64,000 bases of DNA from Aquabacterium sp. OR-4 (GTDB lineage: Bacteria > Pseudomonadota > Gammaproteobacteria > Burkholderiales > Burkholderiaceae_C). Numbering within the stretch: the stretch's first letter is position 1; every line of letters begins with the position of its first letter. Where the stretch lies: the NCBI RefSeq assembly GCF_025290835.2, contig NZ_JAOCQD020000001.1:2046001-2110000 (forward strand), given 5' to 3'. The notes below the pieces were generated by a model. It had not been told where the DNA came from, ran no database searches, and worked only from the letters and a program-made list of their open reading frames with translations. Both the position numbers and the translations under genes were made by a program. Positions 12,088-58,661 of this stretch are shown piece by piece.

Positions 12088-12106
12088 TGACTCCTCCTTC
12101 CAGGAT

Positions 12107-12322
12107 TCAAGAATGACCAGACTGACGATCAGGGGATTGTTCGGGCTGACCCCTAGACGGCAATTGATCCGTGTCAACCGCCTCAGGATCGTTGGCCAGG
12201 ATGCGCTCGCCTTCGCGCTCGAGATCGTCGAATTGCCCGCGGTGCACGGCCCAGCCGAACATCGCGATGATGGCCAGCACCAGCACGGCCGACAGCGGAA
12301 TCAGCAGGTAGAGGATGTCCAT
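12107..12322 (-). CDS. ccoS: cbb3 oxidase maturation protein CcoS
   Basis: A 71-residue protein with one N-terminal helix ([20 protein letters not shown]) and the family signature [21 protein letters not shown]. It is needed for cofactor insertion into cbb3 oxidase in other proteobacteria. It lies 17 bp after ccoI and 19 bp before ccoN. Its last third (residues about 48-53) encodes the FNR-box-like site that probably drives ccoN, so protein and promoter share sequence. Confidence 0.95.
12164..12177 (-). promoter_or_regulatory. FNR-box-like site driving ccoN, inside ccoS
   Basis: TTGATCCGTGTCAA matches TTGAT-N4-ATCAA at nine of ten defined bases. Its centre (12170.5) is about 42 bp from a predicted transcript start near 12129. 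A -10-like ACAATC lies at about 12135-12140 on the minus strand, the geometry of FNR-activated class II promoters. Confidence 0.7.
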
Positions 12323-12339
12323 CGCCGCAGCGGCCCGTT

Positions 12340-14915: not shown

Positions 14916-15383
14916 ATGATCTATGTCAAGACAGGCGTCTGGGGCCCGGCACTGCTGGCCTGGCTGACCGCCTGTGCCGCGGCCCTGGCCCAGCCGGCAC
15001 CGCAGCGCCTGCAGGCGGTGCCGCTGAGTGCCGGCATGCATGCCATCCGCGCCGAGGTGGCGCTGACCAACGAGCAGCGCCAGATGGGCCTGATGTACCG
15101 CCGCGACCTGGCGCAGCACGAGGGCATGCTGTTCGTCTTCGAGGCGGCGGCGCCGCAGTGCTTCTGGATGCGCAACACGCCCACGCCGCTGACCATCGCC
15201 TTTCTGGCCGACGACGGCACCATCGTCAACCTGGCCGACATGAAGCCCTTCGACGAGAACTCGCACTGCTCGGCCAAGCCGGTGCGCTATGTGCTGGAGA
15301 TGAACCAGGGCTGGTTTGCCAAGCGCGGCATCCAGGCCGGCTTCAAGCTGGGTGGCGCGCCGTTTCAGGGCGGCGCGCGCTAG
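14916..15383 (+). CDS. Exported DUF192 family protein
   Basis: A 155-residue protein with an N-terminal signal peptide (about 25 residues, ending ALAQPA). The DUF192 fold follows, with the signatures TNEQRQMGLMYRR, GMLFVF and CFWMRNTPTPLTIAFL. The family is small, secreted or periplasmic, and its function is not settled. The gene stands alone between the divergent ccoI and the convergent histidine kinase gene. Confidence 0.88.
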   Translation: MIYVKTGVWGPALLAWLTACAAALAQPAPQRLQAVPLSAGMHAIRAEVALTNEQRQMGLMYRRDLAQHEGMLFVFEAAAPQCFWMRNTPTPLTIAFLADDGTIVNLADMKPFDENSHCSAKPVRYVLEMNQGWFAKRGIQAGFKLGGAPFQGGAR

Positions 15384-15430
15384 GCAGGCCGCCAGCGCGC
15401 CCGCCGTGGGCGCACCCGCTTCAGCCTGAT

Positions 15431-16894: not shown

Positions 16895-17020
16895 CGGAAT
16901 TTCAGCCCCTCAGCCCCTCAGCCCCGCCGGGCCGCCCCGAGGGGCTGAGCGCCGCAGGGGCGCGCGGCGGCCTCGTGCGAAGCCGCGGGGGCCGCAGCGC
17001 AGCGACATGGCGGCGCCATC

Positions 17021-17731
17021 TCAGCCCGGTGGCGCGGCGGCACTGGCCGCGTCGCCGTCGTCGGCTTCGGCCAGCTCCATCACGTAGCCGAAGCCGCGCA
17101 CGGTCTTGATCACCACGCCCAGCTCGCCGAAGCGCTTGCGCAGGCGGTGCACATACACCTCGACCGAGTTCTCGCTGAAGTCCGACTCCCAGCTTGACAA
17201 GGCCTGCACGATGCTGTCCTTGGGCACCACGCGGCCGGCGCGCTGCATCAGCAGCTGGGTCAGCGCCAGTTCGCGCGGGCTCAGGTGCACGCGCTCGCCG
17301 CGGCAGGTGAGCTCGCGGTGGGCCAGGTCCAGCCGCAAGGGGCCGACCACCAGGCTCTCGTGCAGGCGCCCGTCGGCGCGGCGCTTGAGGGCGCGCAGGC
17401 GCGCCACCAGCTCGGGCAGGTCGAAGGGCTTGGTCAGGTAGTCGTCGGCGCCGGCGTCCAGGCCCTGCACGCGGTCGCCCAGTTCATCGCGGGCGGTCAG
17501 CAGCAGCACCGGCAGACTGGCACCGCGCGCGCGCCAGTGGCGCAGCACCTCCATGCCATCGCGCCGCGGCAGGCCGAGGTCGAGCACCGCGGCGTCGTAG
17601 GGTGCCTCCAGGCCCGCGGCCAGCGCCTGCTGGCCATCGCTGAGCATGTCCACGCGCCAGCCCTCACGCTCGAAGGCCCGGCTGATGCCCAGGCTGAGCG
17701 CCGCATCGTCTTCGACCAGCAAGATCCTCAT
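17021..17731 (-). CDS. OmpR/PhoB-family response regulator
   Basis: A 236-residue DNA-binding partner of the adjacent kinase. The receiver domain begins MRILLVEDDAALSLG with the acidic pair, carries the phospho-acceptor Asp in AVLDLGLPRRDG, and has Lys in the TKPF motif. The C-terminal winged helix contains LSPRELALTQLLM and VEVYVHRLRKRFG, with VKTVRGFGYVM at the end. The start ATG is chosen at the conserved family start; an upstream in-frame extension is a hairpin region. The target genes are unknown. Confidence 0.95.
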   Translation of the reverse strand: MRILLVEDDAALSLGISRAFEREGWRVDMLSDGQQALAAGLEAPYDAAVLDLGLPRRDGMEVLRHWRARGASLPVLLLTARDELGDRVQGLDAGADDYLTKPFDLPELVARLRALKRRADGRLHESLVVGPLRLDLAHRELTCRGERVHLSPRELALTQLLMQRAGRVVPKDSIVQALSSWESDFSENSVEVYVHRLRKRFGELGVVIKTVRGFGYVMELAEADDGDAASAAAPPG

Positions 17732-17764
17732 AGTGCCGCGATGGTAGCGCCGCCCGCAAGCAGC

Positions 17765-17796
17765 AAGGGCCGCACCGGCATGGCCGGGCGGCCCTT
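17765..17796 (-). terminator. Hairpin downstream of sodB, possible terminator
   Basis: A 9-bp stem AAGGGCCGC/GCGGCCCTT with a 14-nt loop lies between the end of sodB and the start of the response regulator gene. The following T tract on the minus strand is interrupted, so termination is only likely. Confidence 0.45.
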
Positions 17797-17869
17797 GCAT
17801 TCAAGTCACGGTGCCCGCCGACCGCGGGCCTTCACCCAGCGGCCGCAGCGCGGCCGCTTCGGGGCGGGA

Positions 17870-18448
17870 TCAGAAATTCGCTTCGGCGAACGACCAGTTC
17901 ACCAGGCTGTTGAGGAAGGTCTCGACGAACTTCGGGCGCGCGTTGCGGTAGTCCACGTAGTAGGCGTGCTCCCACACGTCGATGGTCAGCAGCGGCTTGT
18001 CGGCGCCGGTCAGCGGCGTGGCGGCATTGCTGGTGTTGACGATGTCCACCGAGCCGTCGGGCTTCTTCACCAGCCAGGTCCAGCCCGAGCCGAAGTTGCC
18101 CACCGCGCTCTTGGTGAAGGCTTCCTTGAAGGCGGTGTAGCTGCCCCACTTGGCATTGATGGCCGCTGCCAGGGCGCCCGAGGGCTCGCCGCCGCCGGCC
18201 GGCTTCAGACAGTTCCAGAAGAAGGTGTGGTTCCACACCTGGGCGGCGTTGTTGAAGATCGGGCCGCTGCTCTTCTTGACCACTTCCTCGATCGACAGGC
18301 CGGCGAACTCGGTGCCGCCCACCAGGTTGTTCAGGTTGGTGACGTAGGCCTGGTGGTGCTTGCCGTGGTGGTATTCAAAGGTCTCGGCCGACATGTGCGG
18401 CGCCAGGGCGTCGGGGGCGTACGGCAGGGCCGGGAGGGTGAAGTTCAT
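17870..18448 (-). CDS. sodB: Superoxide dismutase, iron type
   Basis: A 192-residue cytoplasmic enzyme that converts superoxide to peroxide and oxygen. The four metal ligands are recognisable: His27 (in [12 protein letters not shown]), His in WNHTFFW, and Asp and His in [11 protein letters not shown]. The Gln-free [11 protein letters not shown] and GGGEPSG segments and the overall length fit the Fe-type SodB of Burkholderiales rather than the Mn type; metal choice from sequence is reasonable but not certain. The ribosome site is AAGGACT upstream of MNFTLPAL. Confidence 0.95.
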
Positions 18449-18556
18449 GGCAGGAGTCCTTGCGTCTGTACGGCGCGGGATGCGCCGGGGTTGAACGGGA
18501 GCGGATGCTGCGCACGATTGTAGGCAGCGCCCACCAAACCTGCTCGCGCCCTCGGT

Positions 18557-19990
18557 TTAGCGCTTGCGCCGGCCGGGGCGCGCGGCGCGGCCGCTGCTGC
18601 CGTCGTCGGGCGAGGCGGCCGGGCCCACAGCCGGTCCAGCCGCCGGCCCAGCCGCCGCCGCGCCGGCATCGGCCGGCCCCAGCGTCACGCCCAGCACGGC
18701 CACCTCGGCACGGCCATCGGCCCATTGCGCAGCCAGCTGCACACCGGGCGTCAGGCCGGCGGCCAGGGTCACCGGCCGGCCGGCGCCGTCGGTCAGCCAG
18801 GCGTAGCCGCGCGACAGCACCTGGTGCGGATCGACCGCTGCCAGGCGCAGCGCCAGCCGTGCCAGCTGCTCACCGTGGCGGTGCTGCTGGGCCTGTGTGG
18901 CCTGGGCCAGGCGGGGCGACAGCTGCGCCAGCGTGCGCCGGGCACGCTCGAGCCCCAGCGCCAGGGCGGCGCCACGCCGCTGCGCCAGGGCATCGAGCCG
19001 CGCACCCTGCCGCGCCAGCAGGCGCGCCGGCCGGCCCATCTGCAGCGCCAGCCGGTCCAGGCGCTGGGCCTGGGTGTCGAGCCGGCGGTGCGCGGCGCGC
19101 TGCAGGCGCTGCTGCAAGGCCTGCAGGCGCTGCAGTTCGTCGGCACGCACCGGCGTGGCCAGCTCGGCCGCCGCGGTGGGCGTGGGCGCACGCAGATCGG
19201 CCGCCAGCTCGGCCAGCGTGGTGTCGGTCTCGTGGCCCACGCCGCACACCACCGGCAGCGGGCTGGCGGCGATGGCGCGCACCACGGCCTCGTCGTTGAA
19301 GGCCCACAGGTCTTCCAGCGAGCCGCCGCCGCGGCACACGATCAGCGCATCGACCTCGGCGCGCTGGCCGGCCAGCGCGATGGCGCGGGCCAGCTGCGCC
19401 GGGGCCTCGGGCCCTTGCACCAGGCTGGGGTAGACGATCACCCGCAGCTGCGGCGCGCGGCGGGCGATGGCGGTGAGCACGTCGTGCAGCGCCGCCGCCC
19501 CCAGCGAGGTGACCACACCCAGCGTGCGCGGATAGGGCGGCAAGGGCCGCTTGCGCGCGGCATCAAACAGCCCGGCCGCCTCGAGCCGGCCTTTGAGCTT
19601 CAGGAACAGCTCGTACAGCGAGCCGGCGCCCAGGCGCTGCAGCGACTCGACCACGCACTGCAGCTCGCCGCGCGGCTCGTACACCGTGATGCGGCCGCGC
19701 AACTCGACCTGCTGGCCGTCGGCTGGCGAAAAATCCAGCAGGCCGGCGGCCCGGCGAAACATCGCACAGCGCAGCGCGGCCGCGTTGCCCTCGCTGTCCT
19801 TGAGCGTGAAGTAGCAATGGCCGCTGGCCGCGCGGGTAAAGCCCGACAGCTCGCCACGCACCGCCACGGCACCCAGACGGGCCTGCAGCGCATCCGACAC
19901 CGCCAGCAGCAGCGCGCCAACGCTCCAGGCACGGGGGCCGCCGCCGCCCAGCGCGGCCATCAGCAGCGCTCCCGGGCTGCGGCAAACCAT
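18557..19990 (-). CDS. xseA: Exodeoxyribonuclease VII large subunit
   Basis: Catalytic subunit of the single-strand-specific exonuclease that degrades DNA to oligonucleotides during repair. An N-terminal OB-fold (VAVRGELSGFTRAASGHCYFTLKD, about residues 43-66) is followed by the nuclease core with GVVTSLGAAALHDV, CRGGGSLEDLWAFNDE and GVGHETDTTLAE. A long coiled-coil region rich in Gln, Arg and Ala binds XseB in other species. The last ~35 residues are a low-complexity Gly/Pro/Ala tail. Start choice is uncertain: ATG at 19990 or the in-frame ATG at 19960, the latter closer to family starts. Confidence 0.93.
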   Translation of the reverse strand: MVCRSPGALLMAALGGGGPRAWSVGALLLAVSDALQARLGAVAVRGELSGFTRAASGHCYFTLKDSEGNAAALRCAMFRRAAGLLDFSPADGQQVELRGRITVYEPRGELQCVVESLQRLGAGSLYELFLKLKGRLEAAGLFDAARKRPLPPYPRTLGVVTSLGAAALHDVLTAIARRAPQLRVIVYPSLVQGPEAPAQLARAIALAGQRAEVDALIVCRGGGSLEDLWAFNDEAVVRAIAASPLPVVCGVGHETDTTLAELAADLRAPTPTAAAELATPVRADELQRLQALQQRLQRAAHRRLDTQAQRLDRLALQMGRPARLLARQGARLDALAQRRGAALALGLERARRTLAQLSPRLAQATQAQQHRHGEQLARLALRLAAVDPHQVLSRGYAWLTDGAGRPVTLAAGLTPGVQLAAQWADGRAEVAVLGVTLGPADAGAAAAGPAAGPAVGPAASPDDGSSGRAARPGRRKR

Positions 19991-45839: not shown

Positions 45840-45858
45840 CGTTATTGATAACGCGATT
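45840..45858 (+). promoter_or_regulatory. Candidate Zur/Fur operator ahead of the TonB-ABC-Zur operon
   Basis: CGTTAT-TG-ATAACG is a perfect 6-bp-arm inverted repeat at 45840-45853, 50 bp before the receptor start. The core ATTGATAACGCGATT (45844-45858) recurs with one change at 54068-54082 before the ECF sigma gene. GTTAT/ATAAC arms resemble Zur boxes; spacing is one base shorter than the E. coli form. Confidence 0.5.
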
Positions 45859-45903
45859 GCAATACACTTCGACCCCATACGTTGGGATCTCCGGAGACAT
45901 TGC

Positions 45904-48030
45904 ATGCGCGCACCGCGTCGACACGCCATCACCCTGGCCTGCCTGGCCTGCCTGGCCAGCCTGGGCAGCCAGGCCCAGACCCCGCCGGCCGAGCCCGCCG
46001 CGGTGGAGGTGGTGGGCCGTCGCCAGGGTGGCGCCTACGAGGCCGGGCAGGTGGACGGCAGCAAGAGCAGCCTGCCGTTGCTGGAGCAGCCGCAAAGCCT
46101 GCGCGTGATCTCGCGCCAGGCCATCGACGACCTGGGCGCCGTGCGTCTGGACGATGTGCTCGACTACGTGGGCGGTGTCTCGCGCCAGAACAACTTTGGC
46201 GGCCTGTGGGACAACATCGCCATCCGCGGACTGGCCGGCAACGAGAACCAGGGCATGGCCATGCTGCTCAACGGCCTGGCCGCCAACCGCGGCTTCAACG
46301 CCCCGCGCGACCTGGCCGATGTGGAGCGCATCGAGTTCCTGAAGGGCCCGGTGGCCGCGTTGTACGGCGCCAGCGAGCCCGGCGGCACGGTCAACCTGGT
46401 GACCAAGAAGCCGCTGTGGCAGCGCGCCGGCTCGGCCGAGTTCTACGCCGGCAGCTGGGATGCCTACCGCCTGGCGCTCGACACCACCGGCCCGCTGGGC
46501 CCGCAGCTGGCCTACCGGCTGAACCTGGCGGTGGAAGACAAGGGCAGCTTCCGCACCCACGTGCACAGCCGCCGCCAGGTGCTGGCGCCGGCCTTCAGCT
46601 GGCGCCTGGCCAGCACCACCACGCTGGACTACAGCGGCCAGTGGCTGCGCCACGCCACGCCGCTGGACCGCGGCGTGCAGGCCATCCAGGGCCAGCTGGG
46701 CGCGGTGCCGCGCACGCAGTTTCCGGGCGAGCCGGCCGATGGCGACGTGACCGTCACCAACCAGGGCCACCAGCTGGTGCTGCAGCATGAGCTGGCGGCC
46801 GACTGGCGGCTGCGCGGCGCGCTGTCGTGGCGCGAGACGACGCTGCGCGGCTTCTCCACCGAGCCCAACGAGCTGCTCAGCGATGGCCGCACGCTGTCGC
46901 GCCAGCGCCGCGAGCGCGACTACGCCTCCGACGATCTGGCGCTGCAGGCCGAGCTGCACGGCCGCCTGGCCCTGGGCGGCCTGCAGCACGAGCTGCTGGC
47001 CGGGCTCGAGGCCTACCGCTTCGAGCTCGATCAGCGCCAGCTGCGCTACCGCCCGGCGGCGGGCACGGCCGGCTATGCCATCGACCTGCTGGCGCCGGTG
47101 TACGGCCAGGCCCAGCCGACACCCACCACGCTGATCACCAACACGCTGGAAACGCAGCGCGGCAGCGCCCTCACGCTGCAGGATGCCGTGCAGCTGGCCC
47201 CGACCTGGCGCCTGGTGGCCGGCCTGCGCAGCGAAACCGTGGCGCAGGACCTGCTCAACCGCAGCAGCGCCGTCGGCAGCAGCCAGAAGCCGCAGGAGAC
47301 CAGCCGGCGCCTGGGCATCACCTGGCTGCCGGCGCGCGGCTGGGCGCTGTTTGCCAACGCCGGGCGCAGCTTCCGGCCCAACCCGGGTGTGGATGTCAAC
47401 AGCCAGCCCTTCGCGCCCGAGCTGGGCCGCGCCGCCGAGCTGGGTGCCAAGTGGGAAGCGGCCAACAAGCGCCTGGGCGCCACGCTGGCGCTGTTTGACA
47501 TCGGCAAGCGCAACGTGGTCTACAACAACGGCAGCGGCAACAACGCCGTGGCCGGCGAGGTGCGCAGCCGCGGCATCGAGTTCGACCTGGCCGGCCAGAT
47601 CGGCGGCCACTGGCGCCTGAGCGCCAGCCTGGGCCACTACGACACCACGGTCGAGAAGGACCAGACGCTGCAGCCCGGCGGCCGCCTGCTCAACGTGCCG
47701 CGGCTCAACGCCAGCGCGCTGGCGGTCTACGAGGGCCTGCTGCCCGGCGGCGGCCGTTTCGGCCTGGGCGGCGGCCTCACCCATGTGGGCGCCCGCGTGG
47801 GCCAGGCCTACACCGCGGCCGAGGCGCGCGCCGGCAGTGCCGCGTTCATGCTGCCGGCCTACACCACGGCCAAGCTGGTGGCCTACTGGCGGGCCACGCC
47901 CGCGCTGCGTTTTTCGCTCGACGTGGACAACCTGGCCGACACCCGCTACGAGACCAGCTCGTACAGCCGCCTGTGGGTCACACCGGGCACGCCGCGCAAC
48001 CTCACGCTGGGCGTGCAGGCCCGTTTTTGA
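45904..48030 (+). CDS. TonB-dependent receptor of the siderophore/metallophore type
   Basis: A 708-residue outer-membrane receptor. A signal peptide ends near SLGSQAQ, and the plug includes LLEQPQSLRVISRQAIDDLG, IRGLAGNENQGMAMLLNGL and RIEFLKGPVAALYGASEPGG. These are hallmarks of the FhuA/siderophore-type subgroup. The barrel ends with NLADTRYETSSYSRLW and a terminal F. The start MRAPRRHA is at the signal sequence. It is the first gene of an operon continuing into a Dpp/Nik-type ABC importer, a Fur-family regulator and a ZrgA-like protein. The stop overlaps the next start (TTGA). A metal complex is the likely cargo. Confidence 0.93.
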   Translation: MRAPRRHAITLACLACLASLGSQAQTPPAEPAAVEVVGRRQGGAYEAGQVDGSKSSLPLLEQPQSLRVISRQAIDDLGAVRLDDVLDYVGGVSRQNNFGGLWDNIAIRGLAGNENQGMAMLLNGLAANRGFNAPRDLADVERIEFLKGPVAALYGASEPGGTVNLVTKKPLWQRAGSAEFYAGSWDAYRLALDTTGPLGPQLAYRLNLAVEDKGSFRTHVHSRRQVLAPAFSWRLASTTTLDYSGQWLRHATPLDRGVQAIQGQLGAVPRTQFPGEPADGDVTVTNQGHQLVLQHELAADWRLRGALSWRETTLRGFSTEPNELLSDGRTLSRQRRERDYASDDLALQAELHGRLALGGLQHELLAGLEAYRFELDQRQLRYRPAAGTAGYAIDLLAPVYGQAQPTPTTLITNTLETQRGSALTLQDAVQLAPTWRLVAGLRSETVAQDLLNRSSAVGSSQKPQETSRRLGITWLPARGWALFANAGRSFRPNPGVDVNSQPFAPELGRAAELGAKWEAANKRLGATLALFDIGKRNVVYNNGSGNNAVAGEVRSRGIEFDLAGQIGGHWRLSASLGHYDTTVEKDQTLQPGGRLLNVPRLNASALAVYEGLLPGGGRFGLGGGLTHVGARVGQAYTAAEARAGSAAFMLPAYTTAKLVAYWRATPALRFSLDVDNLADTRYETSSYSRLWVTPGTPRNLTLGVQARF

Positions 48031-49643
48031 GCGCTCACCCGGCCCTTGCGGCGGCGTCCGGCGCCTGCACGCGGCGTGCGGCGCTGGCCGCCGCGGCCGC
48101 TGTGACCGCCCTGCCCGGATGGCCGGCGCTGGCGCGGATGGCCGGCGCCCAGGCCGCGCCGGCCGGCCGGCCGCTGCGCATCGTCGGGCCGTGGGAGATC
48201 ACCGGGCTCGAGCCGGCCATCGCCGGCCACTTCTTCACCCGCCTGCAGGTCTGCGAGACCCTGGTCGAAGCCGATGACCAGGGCCGGCTGCAGCCCGGCC
48301 TGGCCAGCGCCTGGACGCTGGCCGACGACGGCCTGCACTGGCGTTTTCGGCTGCGCGAGGGCGCGCGTTTTCACGATGGCACGCCCGTCACCGCCGCCCA
48401 GGTGGCCCAGGTGCTGCAGCGTGCCCACCAGCAGCCCGGCCTGCTGCGCCTGGCACCGCTGGCCGCCATCGAGCCCGCCGCCGGCGCCACCGGCAACGCG
48501 CTGCTGCTGCGCCTGCGCGAACCCTTTGCGCTGCTGCCGGCCTTGCTGGCGCACAGCAGCACCCTGGTGCTGGGCGCTGCCAGCCGCGGCGCTGACGGCC
48601 GGCTGGGCACGATCATCGGCAGCGGCCCCTACCGCATCCATGCGCTGACGCCGCCACAGCAGGTGCAGGTGCAGGCCATGCAGCCCGGGCTGCCGGTGCA
48701 ACAGGCGCACTACCTGAACGTGTCGCGCGCCGAAACCCGGGCCTTGATGGCCGAGGCCGGCCAGGCCGACATGGCGCTGGCGCTCGACCCCGCCAGCCTG
48801 CAGCGCCTGGGCCGCCTGTCGCGCCTGCGCGTGGCGCAGGTGACGGTGCCGCGCACGCTGATCATGAAGCTCAACGCCGGCCACCGCTGGCTGCGCGACC
48901 CGCGCGCCCGGCGCGCCTTGTCGCTGGCGCTCGACCGCGGCGGCATCGCCCGCGGCCTGCTGCGCGACGGCGAGCTGGCCGCCACCCAGCTGCTGCCGCC
49001 CACGCTGGCGGCCTGGCACCAGCCGGGGCTGGCACCGCTGCGCTTCGATCCGGCCGCCGCGGCGCGGCTGTGGGCCGAGCTGGGCTGGCAGCGCGGGCGC
49101 GACGGCCTGCTGCAGCGCGATGGCGACACCCTGCGCCTGACGCTGCGCAGCTTTCCTGACCGGCCCGAACTGCCGCTGGTGGCCACCGCCGTGCAGGAGC
49201 AGCTGCGCCAGACCGGCATCGACTGCCGGGTCTTGATCGGCAACTCGGGCGAGGTGCCGCTGCGCCACCGCGACGGCAGCCTTGAGCTGGCGCTGGCCGC
49301 ACGCCACTACGCCCTGGTGCCCGATCCGCTGGGCACCCTGCTGCAGGACTTCGGGGCCGGGGCCGGTGAGGCAGCCGGCGGCCAGGGCGGCGACTGGGGC
49401 GCGATGGGCTGGCACAGCCCGGCGCTGCAGCAGGCACTGACCGGCCTGGCGCGTGGCCAGGGCGACGCCCCGGCCCTGCGCGCCCAGGCCATGGCCGTGC
49501 TGCACGACGAGCTGCCGGTGATCCCCATTGCCTGGTATCGCCAGTCGGCCGCGCTGGCCCCGGCGCTGGCCGAGCTGGCGCTCGACCCGCTCGAGCGCAG
49601 CTGGCGCCTGAGCCGCATGCCCTGGCCCGGGGGCCGGGCATGA
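48027..49643 (+). CDS. ABC importer solute-binding protein, nickel/peptide/opine type
   Basis: A 538-residue periplasmic SBP-family-5 protein. Start is TTG at 48027, overlapping the receptor stop. The N-terminus has a twin-arginine-like signal (TRRAALAAAAAVTALPGW) and no lipobox Cys, so Tat export is possible. Family blocks visible are AWTLADDGLHWRFRLREGARFHDG, LGTIIGSGPYRIHALTP, LRDPRARRALSLALDRGGI and DELPVIPIAWYRQSAAL. NikA/CntA-type proteins bind metal-ligand complexes; the gene neighbourhood favours that over peptides, but the ligand is inferred. Confidence 0.9.
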   Translation: MSAHPALAAASGACTRRAALAAAAAVTALPGWPALARMAGAQAAPAGRPLRIVGPWEITGLEPAIAGHFFTRLQVCETLVEADDQGRLQPGLASAWTLADDGLHWRFRLREGARFHDGTPVTAAQVAQVLQRAHQQPGLLRLAPLAAIEPAAGATGNALLLRLREPFALLPALLAHSSTLVLGAASRGADGRLGTIIGSGPYRIHALTPPQQVQVQAMQPGLPVQQAHYLNVSRAETRALMAEAGQADMALALDPASLQRLGRLSRLRVAQVTVPRTLIMKLNAGHRWLRDPRARRALSLALDRGGIARGLLRDGELAATQLLPPTLAAWHQPGLAPLRFDPAAAARLWAELGWQRGRDGLLQRDGDTLRLTLRSFPDRPELPLVATAVQEQLRQTGIDCRVLIGNSGEVPLRHRDGSLELALAARHYALVPDPLGTLLQDFGAGAGEAAGGQGGDWGAMGWHSPALQQALTGLARGQGDAPALRAQAMAVLHDELPVIPIAWYRQSAALAPALAELALDPLERSWRLSRMPWPGGRA

Positions 49644-50589
49644 CGCGCTGGCAGCGCAGCCTGGCGCAGCGCCTGCTGCAGGCCGGCCTGGTGGCCCTGC
49701 TGGTGGGCGTCTTCAGCTTTTTGATCATGCGCGCGCTGCCAGGCGATGCGGCCTACCGCATCGCCGCCGCGCGCTACGGCTACGACCTGGTGGACGGCGC
49801 CGCCGCCGCCGCCGTGCGCGCCGAGCTGGGCCTGGATGGCCACTGGCTGCCGGCGCTGGGCCGCTGGCTGGCCGATCTGGCGCAGGGCCGGCTGGGCGTG
49901 TCGGTGGTCAGCGGCGAGCCGGTGTGGCACGAGCTGCTGCACGAGCTGCTGCCCAGCCTGGGCCTGGCCGCTGCCACGCTGGCGCTGGTGGCCCTGCTGG
50001 GCCTGCCGCTGGGCCTGGCCTGCGGGCTGCGCCCCGGCGGCCGGCTCGACCGCCTGAGCCTGGCGCTGGCCGTGGCCCTGCGCGCCCTGCCGCCCTTTGC
50101 GCTGGGCCTGGTGCTGATCCTGCTGTTTGCGGTGCAGCTGCCGGTGCTGCCGGCCGCCGGCCATGGGGACGCCGCCAGCCTGCTGCTGCCGGCACTGACC
50201 CTGGCCTTGCCGCTGGCCGCCACCGCCGCGCGCGTGGTGCGCGAAGCGGTGGCCGCGGTGGCCGCCTCGGCCTACTGGGCCTTCGGCCGGGGCAAGGGCC
50301 TGCCCGGCGCCGTGCTGCTGTGGCGCCATGGTCTGCGCAATGCCGCGCTGCCGGTGGTGGCCTGGCTGGGCGTGCAGGCCGTGCTGCTGGTGGAGGGCGT
50401 GGTCATCGTCGAGACCCTGTTCGCCCGCCCCGGCCTGGGCCATGCGATGGTGCATGCGGTGTTCGGCCGCGACGTGCCGATGATCCAGGGCACCGCCCTG
50501 CTGCTGGGCGCGCTGTTTGTCGGCTTCAACGCGCTGGTCGACGCCGCCTGCCTGGCCCTCGACCCGCGCCGCCGCGACGAGGCCGCTGA

Positions 50590-50593
<4 letters not shown>
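49640..50593 (+). CDS. ABC importer permease (DppB/NikB-like)
   Basis: A 317-residue inner-membrane permease with six hydrophobic segments. The N-terminal helix reads LLQAGLVALLVGVFSFLIMRALPGDAA, and the EAA loop region is SAYWAFGRGKGLPGAVLLWRH. The C-terminus has VEGVVIVETLFARPGLGHAM and ends RRRDEAAE. The start ATG overlaps the binding-protein stop by four bases, and the stop overlaps the next permease start (ATGA), so it is tightly coupled in the operon. Confidence 0.93.
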
Positions 50594-51464
<871 letters not shown>

Positions 51465-51468
<4 letters not shown>

Positions 51469-52919
51469 GCGCCGCACTGCAGGTGCGTGAGCTGGCGGTG
51501 CACGCCGGGGCCGCCACGCTGGTGCAGGGCGTGAGCTTCGAGCTGGGCGCCGGCCAGGCCCTGTGTGTGCTGGGCGAAAGCGGCAGCGGCAAGTCGCTGA
51601 TGGTGCAGGCGCTGATGGCCAGCCTGCCGGCGGGCCTGCGGTCCAGCGGCGAGGTGCGCCTGCAGGGCCGTGTGCACGACGAAGCCGCCCGCCGCGCCGC
51701 CTGGGGCCGGCAGATCGCCCTGCTGCCGCAGGAACCCTCGGCCGCCCTCGACCCCAGCATGCGCGCCTGGCCACAGGTGGCCGAGGTGTACCGCTGGCTG
51801 CGCGGCCTGGCCGCGCCCGCCGCGCGCCAGCAGGCGCAGGCCGATCTCGCCCGCCTGGGCCTGCCCGCAGCGGCACAGCAACGCCACCCGCACCAGCTGT
51901 CGGGCGGCATGGCCCAGCGCGTGGCGCTGGCCGCCACGCTGGCCGGCGGCACGCCGCTGCTGGTGGTGGACGAGCCCACCAAGGGCCTCGACACCGAGCG
52001 CCGCGACCAGGTGCTGGCCCTGCTGCAAGCCGCCATGGCCGCCGGCGCCGCGGTGCTGGCCATCACCCACGACGTGGCGGTGGCGCGGGCCCTGGGCGGC
52101 CAGCTGCTGGTGATGCGTGGCAGCCAGGTCATCGAGCAGGGCCCGGCCAGCGAGCGCCTGCGCCAGCCGCAGCACGACTACACCCGCGCCCTGCTGGCGG
52201 CCGACCCCGCCACCTGGGCCGCACGCCCGGCGGCCCGGCCCGACACCGGCCGACCGGTGCTGCTGCAGGCGCACGGCCTGGCGCTGCAGCGGGGCGGCCA
52301 GCAGCTGTTTGAAGGCGTCAACCTGGCGGTGCGGGCCGGCGAGCGCTGGGCCATCCAGGGCCCCAGCGGCGCCGGCAAGACCTCGCTCGGCCAGGTGCTA
52401 CTGGGCCTGCTGCGGCCCAGCGCGGGCCAGGTGCTGCGCGCCCCGCAGCTGCCGCGCCTGGGCCTGCAAAAGCTCTACCAGGACCCGCTGGCGGCCTTTG
52501 CGCCGCACATCACGCTGGGCACCGGCCTGGCCGACTTTCTGCGCCTGCACCGCCTGCCCGCCGCGGCCCTGCACGCGCTGCGCGAGCGCCTGGGCCTGCC
52601 GGCCGCCCTGCTGCAGCGCCTGCCGCAGGCGGTGTCGGGCGGCGAGCTGCAGCGCCTGGCACTGCTGCGCGTGATGCTGCTGAAGCCGGCCTTGCTGTTT
52701 GCCGACGAGCCCAGCTCGCGGCTCGACCCGATCACCCAGCGCGACGTGCTGCAGCTGCTGCAGGCCCAGCTCGACGCCGAGGGCACGGCCCTGCTGCTGG
52801 TCACCCACGACGCCGCACTGGCCGCGCATGTGGCCGAGCACCGGCTGCAGCTGGGCGCCACCGGCAAGCACCTGCACGCAAGCGCCGCAGACAGGACAGC
52901 GTCACGCCAGATCCGGTAA
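51465..52919 (+). CDS. ABC importer fused double ATPase (NikDE/DppDF-like)
   Basis: A 484-residue ATPase with two nucleotide-binding domains in one chain. First: Walker A GESGSGKS, signature LSGGMAQR, Walker B LLVVDEPTK. Second: Walker A GPSGAGKT, signature VSGGELQR, Walker B LLFADEPSS. Both look catalytically complete. Start is GTG at 51465, overlapping the permease stop (GTGA). The two halves are more compact than the 655-residue ATPase at 35054-37021: there is no long linker and no Cys-rich oligopeptide extension, which fits a nickel/metallophore rather than an oligopeptide importer. Confidence 0.92.
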
Positions 52920-52928
52920 CCTGCCGGC

Positions 52929-53321
52929 ATGGAACGCAACACCCGCCAGCGCAGCGCCATCCGCGAGGCCATTTCCCGTGCCGAGCGGCCCTTGCTGCCG
53001 CACGAGGTGCTCGACGCCGCCCAGCACGAGGCGCCGGGCCTGGGCATTGCCACCGTCTACCGCAACCTCAAGGTGCTGGTCGAGGAAGGCGAGCTCACCG
53101 TGGTGAGCCTGCCCGGCGAGAACCAGCGCTACGAGCCGGTGGGGCACCGCCACCACCACCACTTCCAGTGCCGCCATTGTCAGCGGGTGTTCGACGTGCA
53201 TGCCTGCCCGGGCGACTTTGCACGCCTGGCACCACCGGGCTTCACGGTGGACGACCACGAACTCGTGCTGTACGGCCGCTGCAGCGATTGCGCCGCCCTG
53301 CCGGCCAGCCCTGCCCCATGA
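52929..53321 (+). CDS. Fur-family metal-responsive repressor, Zur-like
   Basis: A 130-residue winged-helix regulator. The N-terminal DNA-binding domain has RQRSAIREAISRAERPLLPHE and the recognition helix in GIATVYRNLKVLVEEGEL. The dimerisation domain carries the His-rich HRHHHHFQCRHCQRVFDVHAC and a C-terminal CSDC, giving two CxxC pairs of the structural zinc site. Fur, Zur and PerR cannot be separated with certainty by eye; the short length and the ZrgA-like neighbour favour zinc sensing (Zur). It follows the ATPase by 9 bp and its stop overlaps the next start (ATGA), so it is co-transcribed with the importer it probably represses. Confidence 0.88.
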   Translation: MERNTRQRSAIREAISRAERPLLPHEVLDAAQHEAPGLGIATVYRNLKVLVEEGELTVVSLPGENQRYEPVGHRHHHHFQCRHCQRVFDVHACPGDFARLAPPGFTVDDHELVLYGRCSDCAALPASPAP

Positions 53322-53899
53322 GCCACCGCCTGCTGAACCCATGGGCCGCGGCGCTGCTCATCGCGCCGATGCTGGCCACCCAGCCGGCCCTGGCCGCTGG
53401 CAAGGCCCACGAACACGGCACGCTCAAGCTCGACGTGGCCATCGACGGCGCGCAGCTCAGCGTGGCGCTGGAGGTGCCGCTGGACAACCTGCTGGGTTTT
53501 GAGCGCGCACCGCGCAACGAGGCCGAGCGCAAGGCCGCCGGCGAGCTGCTGGCGCGCCTGCGCGCGCCCGGCCAGGGCCCGGCCCTGTTCGCGCCCGACG
53601 CCGCCGCGCAGTGCACGCTGGCCCGGGCCGAGGTGAACGCGCCGGTGCTGGTGCCGGCCGGCCATGAACCCACGCGGCCCAGGGGCGCCACCGCCTCCGC
53701 CACCGGCAGCGAGCACGCCGACCTGGACGCCAGCTACACCTACAGCTGTGCCCAGCCGGCCGCCCTGCGCAAGCTGGACATCGGCCTGTTCGAGGTCTTC
53801 CAGCGCCTGCAGCGCATCGACGTGCAGCTGGCCGGCCCTCAGGGCCAGGCCAAGTCCACGCTGAAACGGCCGCAGCGGCGGGTTCAGCTGGCGCGCTGA
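53318..53899 (+). CDS. Exported ZrgA-like protein (DUF2796)
   Basis: A 193-residue periplasmic protein. A signal peptide ends at LAAGKAHEHG, and the mature N-terminus HEHGTLKLDVAIDGAQLSVALEVP matches the start of DUF2796/ZrgA proteins. The C-terminal block YTYSCAQPAALRKLDIGLFEVFQRLQRIDVQLAGPQGQ is also characteristic. ZrgA of Vibrio is a zinc-regulated periplasmic component of zinc uptake and usually has a long His/Asp-rich linker; here that linker is short and nearly His-free. It is last in the operon, coupled to the Zur-like gene. Confidence 0.82.
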   Translation: MSHRLLNPWAAALLIAPMLATQPALAAGKAHEHGTLKLDVAIDGAQLSVALEVPLDNLLGFERAPRNEAERKAAGELLARLRAPGQGPALFAPDAAAQCTLARAEVNAPVLVPAGHEPTRPRGATASATGSEHADLDASYTYSCAQPAALRKLDIGLFEVFQRLQRIDVQLAGPQGQAKSTLKRPQRRVQLAR

Positions 53900-54067
53900 G
53901 CGCGCGCCGGGGTCCATCCCCACCCGATTGCCAACCAGCGGGTGCCGTTCGCAGGCAAGCCCGGCGATCCGGCGCGCCCGCGCCGCTTGCATGCGCACTG
54001 CTGCAGGCCAACGGCAGCGCGCCGACCTCTTGCTGGCGTTCTGGCGTGTTGCGGCTGCAGTGGCTTG

Positions 54068-54092: not shown

Positions 54093-54171
54093 ACGTTTGC
54101 GCCACAGGCCGGCCGATGCCAGTCGCCATGGCCAGGCCCGGGCGTGCGTCTTTCACTTCCAGAGTCTTCTT

Positions 54172-54723
54172 GTGCTGGAGCGCTACCACCGCGAACTGCT
54201 GAACTTCCTGGCGCGCCAGGTGAACGACCGCGACACCGCGGCCGACATCGCCCAGGAAAGCTTTGTGCGCGTGCTGTCAGCCCAGTCGTCGGGCCAGGCC
54301 GTGCTGGACATGCGCGCCCTGCTCTACCGCGTCGCCCGCAACCTGGTGATTGACCAGCACCGGCGCAACGAGGTGCGCCGGTCCTGCGATCTGGACGCCC
54401 TGCCAGAAGACCAGCACCCGCCGGCGCCCAGGCACCTGCAGCCTGAAGAGCTGCTGGCCTCGCAGCAGGTGATCCGCGCGTACCTGGCCACCATCGAGGC
54501 CCTGCCCGCGCGCTGTCGGGAAGCCTTCGTGCTGCATGTCTTCGACGACTGCAGCCACGCCCAGATTGCCCAGCACATGGGCATTTCAGCCAGCATGGTG
54601 GAAAAGCACATCGTGCGCGCCATGGTGGCCTGCAAGCTGTGTGAGCGCCGCCTGCGCGGCGAGGGCGAATCGAATCCAGGCCGGAAAGGCCTGACCGGCC
54701 AGCAGGCCAAGGCGCCAGACTGA
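54172..54723 (+). CDS. ECF sigma factor, FecI-like
   Basis: A ~183-residue alternative sigma factor of the iron-starvation group. Region 2 is seen in DTAADIAQESFVRVL and ALLYRVARNLVIDQHRR; region 4 in LPARCREAFVLHVFDDCSHA and HMGISASMVEKHIVRAM, the latter a FecI-type helix-turn-helix. Start is uncertain: GTG at 54172 fits family starts and leaves the Fur-like box upstream; ATG at 54097 would sit almost on the box. It is followed by fecR-like and TonB-transducer genes, the classic surface-signalling set. Confidence 0.9.
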   Translation: MLERYHRELLNFLARQVNDRDTAADIAQESFVRVLSAQSSGQAVLDMRALLYRVARNLVIDQHRRNEVRRSCDLDALPEDQHPPAPRHLQPEELLASQQVIRAYLATIEALPARCREAFVLHVFDDCSHAQIAQHMGISASMVEKHIVRAMVACKLCERRLRGEGESNPGRKGLTGQQAKAPD

Positions 54724-54794
54724 GCCTGCCCGGGTGAGGCTGGGCTCACCTCGTGCGTCTACATTGACCAGAGCCAGCCGTTTGCCGCACCGCC

Positions 54795-56069
54795 ATGCCC
54801 ACCACCCCGCCTTCCTGGCGCGCTGATCGCGCCCATGCCATCGCGCAAGACCCGCCAGCCGGCGCCAGCGCCGGCCGACTGGCGGAAGAAGGCGCCGACG
54901 AACGCGAGTTCGAAGCCTTCGCCCAGGCGCAGCATCCGCTGGACCTGGCGGCCGCCACCTGGGTGACGCGCAAGCGCAGCGGCCTCAGTGCCGAAGGCGA
55001 AGCCGAATTGCAGGCCTGGCTGGACGCCGACCCGCAGCACGCGCAGGCCCTTGAAGACATGGAGGCCACCTTCGGCGAAGTGCAGCAGCTGCCTGGCGAC
55101 GACGTGGCGCAGCTGCGCGCCTGGCTGCCGGAGCAAGAGGCCGCCGCCCGGGCCGGGCTCGCGCCCAGCGGGCCCAGGCGGCCACAACGCGGCCTCACCA
55201 CCGGCTGGGGTTTCGTCCTGCCCGGCCTGCTGGCTTGGCTGCGCCCGCTGGTGCCCCATGGCGCCGCCGCGGCCATGGCATTTGCGACCGTGTGCGGTGC
55301 CTGGCTGGGGTGGCGCCATTGGCAGCAGCAACCTGTGTTCGCGCAGGCCTACGCCACCGAACGCGGCCAACAACTGCAGGCCACCCTGCCCGACACCGCC
55401 GACACCGCCCCGGCCGCCGGCAGCACGCTGCAACTCGACACCGCCACCCGGGCCGAGGTGCGCCTGTTTCGCGACCGGCGCGAAGTGCACCTGCAAAGCG
55501 GTCAGGCCATGTTTGCGGTGCATGCCGACCCGCAGCGCCCCTTCCATGTGTACGCCGGCGCGCTTCGCATCACGGTCGTCGGCACCCGCTTTTCGGTGCG
55601 GCATACAGGCACCGGGCTCGATGCAGGCCAGACCGTGGTGGCAGTGGAAGAGGGCCGTGTGCGCGTTGAAGCACACCCGCATTCCGCCGGTGGCGACGCC
55701 GCAGCGCCGGCGGGCGTTGCGGCGCCCCTGGCACCGGCCAAGCACCGCGTCGAGCTGAGCGCTGGGCAGATGGTGGTGGCCAACGCCCAGGGCCAGGTGG
55801 GCCCGGTCGTCGCGCTGCCGGCCCATGCCATCGCCCCCTGGCGAAGCGGGCGCCTCGGCTTCGACCACACCCCACTGGCCCAGGCCATTGCCGAGTTCGA
55901 GCGCTACGGCCGCACCGGGCTGGTGGTGCACGACCCCGCCGTGGCTGCCTTGCCGGTGGGTGGCAGCTACAGCCTCACGCAGTGGCAGCGCTTTGCCGAG
56001 ACCCTGCCGCAGGTGCTGCCGGTGCGCCTGGTGCGCCGGGGCCAGGTCACGGAGGTGGTGGCGCAGTGA
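54795..56069 (+). CDS. FecR-like anti-sigma/signal-transducing membrane protein
   Basis: A 424-residue inner-membrane regulator. The cytoplasmic N-terminal part contains the DUF4880-like region PLDLAAATWVTRKRSGLSAEGEAELQAWLDADPQHAQAL, followed by one membrane helix (about residues 155-175, AMAFATVCGAWLGW). The periplasmic FecR domain follows (TATRAEVRLFRDRREVHLQSGQAMFAVHADPQRPFHVYAG...TVVGTRFSVR). The C-terminal part resembles an STN-like domain that would contact the receptor. The N-terminal ~30 residues and the length exceed typical FecR (~320). It controls the upstream sigma factor. Confidence 0.92.
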   Translation: MPTTPPSWRADRAHAIAQDPPAGASAGRLAEEGADEREFEAFAQAQHPLDLAAATWVTRKRSGLSAEGEAELQAWLDADPQHAQALEDMEATFGEVQQLPGDDVAQLRAWLPEQEAAARAGLAPSGPRRPQRGLTTGWGFVLPGLLAWLRPLVPHGAAAAMAFATVCGAWLGWRHWQQQPVFAQAYATERGQQLQATLPDTADTAPAAGSTLQLDTATRAEVRLFRDRREVHLQSGQAMFAVHADPQRPFHVYAGALRITVVGTRFSVRHTGTGLDAGQTVVAVEEGRVRVEAHPHSAGGDAAAPAGVAAPLAPAKHRVELSAGQMVVANAQGQVGPVVALPAHAIAPWRSGRLGFDHTPLAQAIAEFERYGRTGLVVHDPAVAALPVGGSYSLTQWQRFAETLPQVLPVRLVRRGQVTEVVAQ

Positions 56070-56093
56070 GGCGAAACCGGCCGCCGCAGACAT

Positions 56094-56112
56094 CAAGAAG
56101 AATTCTTATTCG
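56094..56112 (+). promoter_or_regulatory. Fur-like/AT-rich operator before the TonB transducer gene
   Basis: The segment contains the perfect palindrome AAGAATTCTT (56098-56107) followed by ATTCGCAA, an AT-rich island in the 147-bp fecR-receptor gap. It resembles betaproteobacterial Fur sites. A FecI-type promoter could equally lie here. Confidence 0.45.
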
Positions 56113-56216
56113 CAACATGAGGAAACCGCAGGGGTGCTGCGTCTTCTTCGGGAGGCAGGGCCGGTCCGCAAGGCGCCGGCCCGGCAAATCAGCCACCGAC
56201 CGAGGAGTTTTCACCC

Positions 56217-58661
56217 ATGCGAACGATGCCGCTGCACCAGCGCTTCACCCCTGCACCCCTGGCCCAGGCCGCCTTCCTGGCCTTGGCGATGGCGGCCGGC
56301 CATGCGCCGCTGGCCCACGCCCAAAGCGGCACGGCAACGGCGGTCGCCACGCCCATCGCCCTCACCATCCCGGCGCTGCCGCTGGGGCAGGCGCTCAACG
56401 AGCTGGCGCGCCAGGCAAACCTGGCGATGACGTTTCCGGCGGCGCTGGTGGCGGGCAAGCAGGCGCCGGCGGTGACGGGGCCGTTGACGGTGCAGCAGGC
56501 ACTGGATCGGCTGCTGGCCGGCAGCCGGCTGACCGCCGCGGTGGAGGGCCACTCGGTGATCGTGAAAGAGCTGCCGGCGGGCGCCGTCGCCTTGAAGGAA
56601 ATGCCCACGGTGCGCGTCGTGGCCTCGGTTCTGCGCCCAGGCGATCTGCCCGCGGCCTTTGCCGGCGGCCAGGTCGCCACGGGCGCGCGGATGGGTGTGC
56701 TGGGCAACCAGAGCGTGATGGACACCCCCGCCAACATCACCAGCTACACCGCCGAGCTGATGGAAAACCGCCACGCACGCACCGTGGCCGACGTGCTGAC
56801 CAGTGATCCCTCGGTGCGCAACTCGGTGACGACCGGGCACCAGTACGAGAACTTCAAGGTGCGCGGGTTCACCATCAGCCGCGGTGACTTCGCCATCGAC
56901 GGCCTGTTCGGCATGAGCGGCAACAGCAACAGCGCCATCGACATGTTCGAACGGGTCGAACTGCTGAAGGGCCCGGGCGTGCTGTTTACCGGCATGGCCC
57001 CCAGCGGCGGGGTGGGCGGCATCATCAACATGGTGCCCAAGCGCGCCAGCGACGAACCGATCAACCGGGTGACCGTTGACGCGCAAAGTGCCAGCCAGCT
57101 GGGCACCAGCGTCGATGTCGGCCGCCGTTTTGGTGAGGACAAGGCGCTGGGCCTGCGCATCAACGGGCGCTTCGCCGATGGCGAAACCACCCTGCAGGGC
57201 CAGGACGAGCGGCGCGAATCCTTCTCCGTCGCGCTCGACTACCGGGGCAAGGCGCTGAAGGCCTCGCTCGACGCGTACACCAGCAAGGAAGTCGTCACCG
57301 GTGGCGTCGGCGCGATGTTCGAGTTTCCGACCAACGCGGTCGTTCCGGCCGCCCCAGACCCATCGATCAATCAGTTTCCCAGTGCCAACGGCGTGCTGGA
57401 ATCCAATGCCGTGATCGCCAGGGCCGAGTACGACATTCTTCCGGGCTTTTCAGCCTTTGCCGCCACCGGCCTGTCGAAGTCCAAGAACGCAGGCTTCACC
57501 GGCGGCTCGATCGTCAACGCCATCTCCGCCAGTGGCACCAGCACCACGACGACCACCGGGGCCACGCTGGGCAGCCAGACCAACCGGAGCACAGAAGCCG
57601 GCCTGCGCGGGCGCTTGACCACCGGCCCGGTGCTGCATGACCTGGTGCTGCAGGTGTCGCGCCTGGAAAACGAGACGCGGTCGGCCAGCGTCACCAAGGC
57701 CATCGCCAGCACGAACATCTACAACCCGACCTATGCCGACATGCCGGTCATGCCCACGTTCGCGCCCAAGACCGCGCAGACCACGTGGTCGGGCCTGACG
57801 CTGGCCGACACGCTGTCCACCTGGAACGACAAGCTGCACCTGACGCTGGCCATGCGCCGGCAGCGCATCGAGACCACCAGCTTCAGCGCGACCGGCGCCG
57901 TCACCGCCGACTACGACATGAGCGCGTGGGCCCCGTCGGTGGGGGTGGTGGTCAAGCCCTGGGGCGATCACCTGTCGCTGTATGCCAACCATGTGCAAGC
58001 GCTGAGCAAGGGCGATCAGGTGACCCAGGTTGCCGGCTACGTGCAGGACTTCACCTTCGAGCCCTACAAGTCCACGCAACACGAGCTGGGGGTCAAGTGG
58101 AACCTGGGCAGCTTTGCCCACACCGTCAGCCTGTTCCAGATTTCCCAGCCCATGCTGATCGCCACCGGCGTGCGCCCCAACATGATCGCCACGATCAACG
58201 GTGAGAAGCGCGTGCGCGGACTGGAATGGAACAGCTTTGGCACGGTGATGCCCCATGTCCGACTCCTGGGCGGCGTGGCCTACACCGAGGGTGTGCAAAC
58301 CCGCACCCAAGGCGGGCAGTACGACGGCAAGGACGCTGTCGGCGTGCCGCAATGGCAAGGCAATCTCAGTGCCGAATGGGACACCCCCTGGGTGCCGGGC
58401 CTGACCTTCAGTGGCCAGGTCACCACCACCAGCAGCCAGTACCTGGATTCGGCCAACGTCATGACCCTGCCGAGCTGGACGGTGCTGGATCTGGGCGCGC
58501 GCTACAGCATGCAGGTGGCCGGCAAGAAGCTGACCACCCGCCTGACGGTCAGCAACGCATCGGACCGCCACTACTACTCGAGCTCGTTCCGCGACACCCG
58601 ACCCGTGGCGAACCTGGGCCAGGGCCGTGTGGTGTCAGTCTCGGCCACGCTGGACTTCTGA
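56217..58661 (+). CDS. TonB-dependent siderophore receptor/transducer with N-terminal signalling domain
   Basis: An 814-residue outer-membrane receptor. A signal peptide (to about residue 36) is followed by an STN signalling domain (IPALPLGQALNELARQANLAMTFPAALVAG to SVIVKEL, about residues 50-122), which talks to FecR. The plug follows with VMDTPANITSYTAELMENR, FKVRGFTISRGDFAIDGL and VELLKGPGVLFTGMAPSGG. The barrel ends NASDRHYYSSSFRDTRPV...SATLDF. The ferric-siderophore subgroup is clear. No biosynthesis genes for a siderophore are present, so it may use a foreign one. Ribosome site GAGGAG. Confidence 0.94.
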   Translation: MRTMPLHQRFTPAPLAQAAFLALAMAAGHAPLAHAQSGTATAVATPIALTIPALPLGQALNELARQANLAMTFPAALVAGKQAPAVTGPLTVQQALDRLLAGSRLTAAVEGHSVIVKELPAGAVALKEMPTVRVVASVLRPGDLPAAFAGGQVATGARMGVLGNQSVMDTPANITSYTAELMENRHARTVADVLTSDPSVRNSVTTGHQYENFKVRGFTISRGDFAIDGLFGMSGNSNSAIDMFERVELLKGPGVLFTGMAPSGGVGGIINMVPKRASDEPINRVTVDAQSASQLGTSVDVGRRFGEDKALGLRINGRFADGETTLQGQDERRESFSVALDYRGKALKASLDAYTSKEVVTGGVGAMFEFPTNAVVPAAPDPSINQFPSANGVLESNAVIARAEYDILPGFSAFAATGLSKSKNAGFTGGSIVNAISASGTSTTTTTGATLGSQTNRSTEAGLRGRLTTGPVLHDLVLQVSRLENETRSASVTKAIASTNIYNPTYADMPVMPTFAPKTAQTTWSGLTLADTLSTWNDKLHLTLAMRRQRIETTSFSATGAVTADYDMSAWAPSVGVVVKPWGDHLSLYANHVQALSKGDQVTQVAGYVQDFTFEPYKSTQHELGVKWNLGSFAHTVSLFQISQPMLIATGVRPNMIATINGEKRVRGLEWNSFGTVMPHVRLLGGVAYTEGVQTRTQGGQYDGKDAVGVPQWQGNLSAEWDTPWVPGLTFSGQVTTTSSQYLDSANVMTLPSWTVLDLGARYSMQVAGKKLTTRLTVSNASDRHYYSSSFRDTRPVANLGQGRVVSVSATLDF

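Follow-up and report, generated by a model that had tools for sequence, protein, structure and literature searches.

A candidate Zur-controlled operon for zinc-chelate import, pairing a TonB-dependent receptor with a Nik/Cnt-type importer, in Aquabacterium sp. OR-4

Zur-controlled receptor/importer operons, Nik/Cnt importers and ZrgA proteins are already known, each separately. In P. aeruginosa, PA2911-PA2914 encode a Zur-controlled TonB receptor and ATP-binding cassette (ABC) importer for a metal-metallophore; in the sections of the source drawn on here, the transporter is described as siderophore/B12-type-like and not of Nik type, the operon as named is without zur or zrgA, the ligand is pyochelin-cobalt, and the ZrgA homologue PA4063 belongs to a separate Zur operon (PMC11481552). 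The zur-cobW2-cobW3-Rmet_0123 operon of C. metallidurans also joins regulator and TonB receptor in one Burkholderiales operon, but its receptor lies downstream of zur, and the excerpted text names no ABC importer or ZrgA (PMC11647595). Vibrio ZrgABCDE places a ZrgA-family protein under Zur, and V. parahaemolyticus omr-znuA2-znuB2 combines a zinc-regulated TonB receptor with an inner-membrane zinc importer of the ZnuA/ZnuB type (PMC9817125, as excerpted). The CntABCDF staphylopine and NikABCDE nickel importers belong to one superfamily, with an SBP_bac_5 substrate-binding protein (SBP), two permeases and two ATPase domains, and AztABC/ZnuABC-like importers stand beside zur in Burkholderiales. 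Here, we report a predicted seven-gene operon within a 64,000-nucleotide stretch of Aquabacterium sp. OR-4 (contig NZ_JAOCQD020000001.1, positions 2,046,001 to 2,110,000; hereafter the window, whose numbering is used throughout). From its operator, gene content and the context of its regulator's relatives, the operon is probably a Zur-repressed, self-regulated import route for a zinc chelate.

The seven genes (45904-53899) lie on the + strand end to end, overlapping or nearly touching. A TonB-dependent receptor of the siderophore-receptor type (45904-48030; PF00593 165 bits, PF07715 82 bits) is followed by an SBP_bac_5 protein nearest to the NikA type (48027-49643; PF00496 179.5 bits in the frame from 47973), a NikB-like inner-membrane permease (49640-50593; PF00528 106 bits; Opp2B and NikB models 246 and 194 bits, under cut-offs), a NikC-like inner-membrane permease (50590-51468; PF00528 68 bits; NikC model 156 bits, under cut-off) and a double ATPase, NikD-NikE fused as a single chain (51465-52919; PF00005 159 bits in two stretches; NikD 244, CntF 222, CntD 220 and NikE 216 bits, all under cut-offs). 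The last two genes encode a Fur-family regulator assigned as Zur (52929-53321) and a ZrgA-family protein (DUF2796), putatively for periplasmic zinc uptake (53318-53899; PF10986 158 bits, cut-off 27.4). The junctions are TTGA, ATGA, ATGA, GTGA, a 9-bp gap and ATGA, in that order. The same-strand block and its overlaps, first named in a sequence-only reading of this DNA, were confirmed by open reading frame coordinates, sequence reading and Pfam matches above cut-off. Two starts were chosen by us: the receptor ATG at 45904, where a signal-peptide-like stretch begins (frame open from GTG 45817), and the SBP TTG inside the TTGA junction (frame open from GTG 47973), which gives 538 residues compared with 513 in a database copy. 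A short GC-rich hairpin followed by TTTTT lies at the receptor stop/SBP start (48008-48023) and may keep importer output below that of the receptor, or be due to chance.

Compared with Cnt and Nik systems, the set stays under their cut-offs, its ATPases are fused, it comes together with an outer-membrane receptor, zur and zrgA, and the gene list and Pfam gave no biosynthesis or opine genes among the seven. It shares with the AztABC/ZnuABC-like loci a related regulator, the same operator type and the zrgA partner; their binding protein (PF01297) and permease (PF00950) are of families not found in the window operon. ZrgB, ZrgC, ZrgD and ZrgE of Vibrio are likewise not in the operon. What looks new is the pairing of a Nik/Cnt-type importer with a TonB receptor under Zur; no description of such a pairing in Gram-negatives was found among the literature matches listed, judged mostly from abstract openings.

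The operator model was trained by expectation-maximization with a palindrome constraint on 72 non-redundant zur promoters of other genomes (8 of 80 were dropped as near-copies beforehand, and the window was excluded). Three seeds were picked after viewing the promoters, two of them after viewing the window site; all reached identical likelihood, and none of 25 random starts was better by the script's margin. One 22-bp palindromic box was learned (consensus TAATGATAATGCATTATCATTA), present in about 76% of the 72 promoters. When the 64-kb window was scanned, a single strong site was found, TATTGATAACGCGATTGCAATA at 45843-45864 (no strand; 25.0 bits), about 40 bp ahead of the receptor ATG. The next-best scores were 3.4 bits, overlapping this site, and 2.7 bits, at the promoter of the adjoining sigma factor. 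First-order Markov surrogates of the whole window (n = 100) reached at most 13.8 bits, and surrogates of the 120-bp intergenic region (n = 2000) at most 20.6 bits. The box sits just inside the start that the sequence-only reading gave the locus (45840) and is absent from its text; the Zur linkage guessed there now has a predicted operator and, as set out below, a zinc-gene context among the regulator's relatives. No second such site stands ahead of zur within the window, so zur seems dependent on the operon promoter and would therefore regulate itself.

A pattern search of the genome returned the operon box with 0 mismatches and two further loose places, with 2 and 3 mismatches, which score 14.6 and 7.2 bits by matrix. 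The latter lies within a repetitive stretch. The 14.6-bit site (L119 8058-8079; C2:1158557) overlaps the beginning of an 843-codon open frame, TonB-receptor-like by eye, and is a possible second Zur target. A different palindrome, GTTATTGATAAC, first caught by eye, was rejected as the operator itself: a half-site scan (spacings 1-4; the window stretch and loci L005-L090) gave no family-wide motif, and the learned box is offset and longer.

For the regulator, the best 80 of 182 places with relatives were read, from named genomes that are mostly Burkholderiales by title. Neighbours were counted from crude gene calls and clustering, with one representative identified per cluster; because contigs end within many of the loci, the counts are lower bounds. 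PF01297-type clusters (3 and 5 together) occurred in at least 34 of the 80 zur loci, a ZigA/COG0523 cluster in at least 13 and a ZrgA match in at least 26. The PF01297 representatives scored 105 and 266 bits, both above cut-off, and for the latter AztC was the best model (279 bits, cut-off 350). The ATPase neighbour matched AztA best (206 bits, cut-off 220), the ABC-3 permease neighbour PF00950 (185 bits) and the COG0523 metallochaperone neighbour ZigA (561 bits, cut-off 600). The operator stands ahead of the regulator's own gene and of zinc-uptake genes, in the zur promoters given above, in this operon and between azt-like genes and zur in three congeners (G011, G530, G528). The regulator itself matches PF01475 (70 bits); C81, C84 and C118 are invariant in 19 relatives, and its fourth cysteine is present in all 17 rows long enough, two rows ending before it. 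Among solved structures, chains titled 'metal uptake regulation protein' score highest against it (59.9 and 59.0 bits), ahead of an iron uptake regulatory protein (53.5), PerR (51.3) and FurB (50.7); structures 3mwm and 2o03 we take to be Zur, and 3eyy to be Nur. From operator and context, the regulator is read as Zur, a name that the family models do not give it. Zinc starvation of B. cenocepacia raises znuACB together with a Fur-family gene taken to be zur (PMC10563805, as excerpted).

Beyond the window, close SBP relatives (E 1e-60) were found in 6 of 120 family genomes and 12 of 399 order genomes, the Aquabacterium sp. OR-4 genome counted in both. The order SBP-NikB-NikC-NikDE is kept in 15 other genomes reached via the SBP and in 4 of the 80 zur loci (L024, L031, L035, L039, the last with its contig ending inside NikDE); the four reached through zur are biased for zinc linkage. 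A survey of gene order across relatives had been proposed in the sequence-only reading: the SBP-Nik module and the receptor-importer core recur, but the full seven-gene order was seen in none of the 19 other module loci read. A relative of the window receptor stands directly upstream of the module in nine of the 19 (L031, L101, L102, L104, L106, L111, L112, L113 in part, L115), L103 has a different TonB receptor there, and in the remaining nine none was recognised at that position. Zinc genes adjoin several modules: L106 and L031 have zigA immediately upstream, in L031 with zur in divergent orientation, and zur lies directly upstream of the SBP in the closely similar L024, L035 and L039, of which L035 is from Sphaerotilus natans. 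Zur-matrix sites of at least 15 bits were present ahead of the module in seven of the 19 loci (L102, L103, L106, L024, L035, L039 and L031, whose box is shared with zur and was part of the training set), compared with 549 of 20000 random 460-bp pieces of the loci. By eye, L107 carries a palindrome close to the Vibrio Zur site, and L108-L110 are loosely like it (PMC9817125, as excerpted). About 3 kb from the L102 receptor, a MacB/FtsX permease and a DUF3299 gene are reminiscent of ZrgB/ZrgE partners. Two further neighbours were observed: a histidine-rich repeat protein of 159 residues directly upstream of the L104 receptor (12056-12535; sub-threshold DUF2946 match only), and, shortly after the L101 module, another Nik/Opp-type permease/ATPase set distinct from that of the module (14976-18921).

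Within the genus (21 genomes, 12 of them >=90% complete and <=5% contaminated), the SBP was found at E 1e-60 in the OR-4 genome only. A PF01297 protein is present in 8 of the 21, and all eight surroundings were read. In G011, G530 and G528, a Zur box (22.1, 29.4 and 24.7 bits) lies between azt-like genes and a divergently oriented zur-zrgA pair, and these loci lie outside the training set; in G520 and G522, zur is followed by genes for the ATPase, the permease and the PF01297 protein and then by zrgA (same contigs as training loci L029 and L012). G518 has azt-like genes then zrgA, with no zur on its short contig, and G526 and G527 have a ZnuA-like cluster without zur. The other 13 genomes lack PF01297, OR-4 included, where no match was obtained in the whole genome at E 0.001 and the operon permeases are PF00528. 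Five congeners (G011, G530, G528, G520, G522) thus pair zur and zrgA with azt-like genes, and OR-4 has the receptor and Nik-type importer there. As read from these loci, the window kept zur-zrgA, and its receptor and importer stand where relatives carry azt-like genes: a local exchange, and no rule. A rule that the Nik importer replaces ZnuA was considered and rejected, PF01297 being present in 7 of 16 module-bearing genomes compared with 50 of 120 family genomes; it was also present in 3 of the 4 genomes of module-bearing zur loci.

For the transporter parts, the top-scoring NCBIfam models are those of Nik, Opp and Cnt, with scores under cut-off for all models shown. For the NikABCDE equivalogs, scores were 110.9 bits for TIGR02294 (cut-off 393), 194 for TIGR02789 (447), 156.2 for TIGR02790 (358.45) and 244 for TIGR02770 (318.7); NikA models gave the SBP 140 and 111 bits, under cut-offs, and the CntA model NF047575 gave 68.1 bits (cut-off 800). 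An SBP family profile was built from 19 homologues, L106 being excluded from the alignment for a TGA in its SBP match. Against solved chains, the profile scored 177 bits for NikA, 167 for 5yh5 (a 'nickel' SBP, presumably CntA), 167 for 9pl3 ('peptide-binding protein'), 140 for YliB and 131 for DppA, and a single-sequence search ranked a nickel SBP first (88.9 bits) and YliB second (87.2). The SBP therefore appears closer to nickel/metallophore binders than to DppA, though its kinship is not exclusive to them. A firm grouping with dipeptide binders, raised in the sequence-only reading, was not obtained by profile; the 9pl3 and YliB scores qualify that outcome. In the family-profile hidden Markov model alignment, counted by eye, NikA His416 aligns to the first glycine of a conserved GGDWGAMGW and Arg137 to a serine. 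As both residues are taken to act in nickel-chelate binding, their loss suggests that the SBP ligand is probably not that of NikA. A twin-arginine-like N-terminal stretch was noted by eye in the SBPs of the window (48027-48110), L101-L104, L106 and L111-L113, and none in L105, L108 or L115; if exported by twin-arginine translocation, the SBP may already be folded when it exits the cytoplasm. Of the 8000 candidates scored, at least 1175 are SBP relatives at E 1e-80 or better; those with names among the 120 listed are mostly Burkholderiales, several labelled peptide/nickel transport, and Variovorax strains also carry the SBP.

The scores and residues above bear on the main rival, a Zur-controlled operon that imports a metallophore with cobalt or nickel, the other metal standing in for zinc. 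The nearest transporter models are indeed those of nickel and nickel/cobalt; against this, the nickel equivalog scores fall short, glycine and serine align where NikA has His416 and Arg137, and the zigA-, azt- and zrgA-type context genes point to zinc. We consider this cargo unlikely, though a serious competitor, since the Zur-controlled PA2911-PA2914 receptor and importer are reported for pyochelin-cobalt (PMC11481552, as excerpted).

The receptor belongs to the TonB-dependent siderophore receptor subfamily (TIGR01783 316 bits, cut-off 223.5), its best solved relatives carry names of siderophore or metallophore receptors, and Pfam gave no STN signalling domain match at E 0.001. These assignments speak against the possibility that receptor and SBP take zinc without a metallophore, either free or bound to amino acids or peptides of the medium, as does the usual cargo of SBP_bac_5 proteins, which is organic ligands. 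In favour of uptake without a metallophore, there are zero biosynthesis genes among the seven, and four histidines invariant across 19 SBPs (H116, H176, H331 and H414, window numbering) could bind metal directly; H116 presumably falls in a motif common within the SBP superfamily. We judge such uptake improbable on balance, at much the same level as the cobalt/nickel cargo.

In a maximum-likelihood tree of 19 receptors, the window receptor groups with that of L031 (support 100/99). The receptors of L070, L074 and L080, which adjoin an ABC-2-type ATPase near zur, nest in the clade of Nik-linked receptors, and three partner changes are required, forced by well-supported branches. A DUF3526 permease was identified by Pfam in L070 and by clustering in L080, and none was seen in L074, where the contig ends. 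Because one receptor lineage has two kinds of inner-membrane partner, this suggests that the constant part is the receptor plus Zur control, and not the Nik importer. TonB receptors beside zur, an ABC-2-type ATPase and DUF3526-cluster permeases, with Zur boxes, were observed in L070 (5639-9809), L080, L019, L021, L023 and L032 (Pfam for L070, clustering elsewhere); the set could be an exporter or chelator-recycling device, and DUF3526 appeared by name in none of the papers searched. The ZrgA gene is the sole PF10986 match in the OR-4 genome, and it scored 86.1 bits against the NCBIfam ZrgA equivalog NF047873 (cut-off 185). ZrgB/C/E partners were not found beside the operon. Its flanks are a gene for a flavin adenine dinucleotide-dependent protein upstream and, after a gap of about 200 bp downstream, a separate set of sigma factor, FecR and STN-bearing TonB receptor (54097-58661), which looks iron-type and has, by eye, a Fur-box-like stretch at 54066.

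This neighbour, with the siderophore-type receptor of the operon itself, is what favours an iron-siderophore system adjoining zur by chance. Such a system is very unlikely, as the neighbour promoter scores only 2.7 bits by the Zur matrix compared with 25.0 for the operon, and the linkage of the module to zinc genes recurs in other genomes. Least probable of all is a peptide importer beside an unrelated receptor, for which the peptide/nickel labels of SBP relatives and the 9pl3 and YliB scores would speak, against the lower DppA than NikA score by family profile and the Zur site and zinc context.

Several results weigh against a zinc-chelate route under Zur. At E 0.001, the regulator has no match to a named Zur model; its NCBIfam matches are to PerR, Fur and Irr, all under cut-off, with PerR models first (best 66.6 bits, cut-off 200), and in one relative a Zur model gave 25.4 bits (cut-off 167). 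On a grouping with PerR or Fur, which the sequence-only reading had set against its proposal, sequence models give no verdict, ranking PerR first, far under cut-off; operator and zinc context say Zur. The names AztC, AztA and ZigA in that context all come from sub-cut-off matches. The lost NikA nickel-site residues tell against Ni-histidine and do not show zinc. In 11 of the 19 other module loci, L107-L110 included, there is no 15-bit site (the L113 site, at a coding start, is doubtful and was not counted); L111, L112 and L115, from genomes of three families, share a different palindrome upstream of the receptor gene, TGCAACA-N-TGTTGCA with mismatches, which looks like a Fur-family box of another kind, and nothing Zur-like was recognised by eye upstream in L101, L104, L105 and L114. 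Finally, the distribution of PF01297 is uneven in any case (8 of 21 genus, 50 of 120 family and 7 of 16 module-bearing genomes), so that replacement of azt by Nik is not general.

With these points included, we still favour a Zur-repressed, self-regulated import route, with a zinc, possibly cobalt or nickel, chelate as the most likely cargo on sequence grounds. When zinc is sufficient, zinc-loaded Zur would occupy 45843-45864 and silence one seven-gene transcript that includes zur. When zinc drops, Zur would be released from the DNA; the TonB receptor would carry the metal-chelate into the periplasm, and the NikA-like SBP would pass it, presumably intact, to NikB-NikC, powered by the fused NikDE ATPase, with ZrgA as a putative periplasmic zinc-binding helper. 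New Zur from the same transcript would then re-repress the operon after zinc recovery.

If this is true, an importer type now labelled in databases for peptides or nickel would serve a route that takes a zinc-containing complex across both membranes. In the well-studied case of P. aeruginosa, the inner-membrane step for metallophore-borne zinc is open: it is stated to be unknown if metal bound by pseudopaline is released in the periplasm or carried on into the cytoplasm (PMC11481552, as excerpted). With its receptor and chelate-type importer behind a single Zur box, in bacteria from the environment, the operon makes a direct test possible. More tentatively, and with confidence a little short of even, the large 'peptide/nickel importer' family may form a separate Zur-controlled class of zinc-chelate importers, with its own receptor clade and able to replace azt-type importers beside zur, and in that receptor clade an ABC-2 transporter with DUF3526 permeases may also have taken over as the inner-membrane partner. 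The operon could also help to correct how a large transporter family is annotated.

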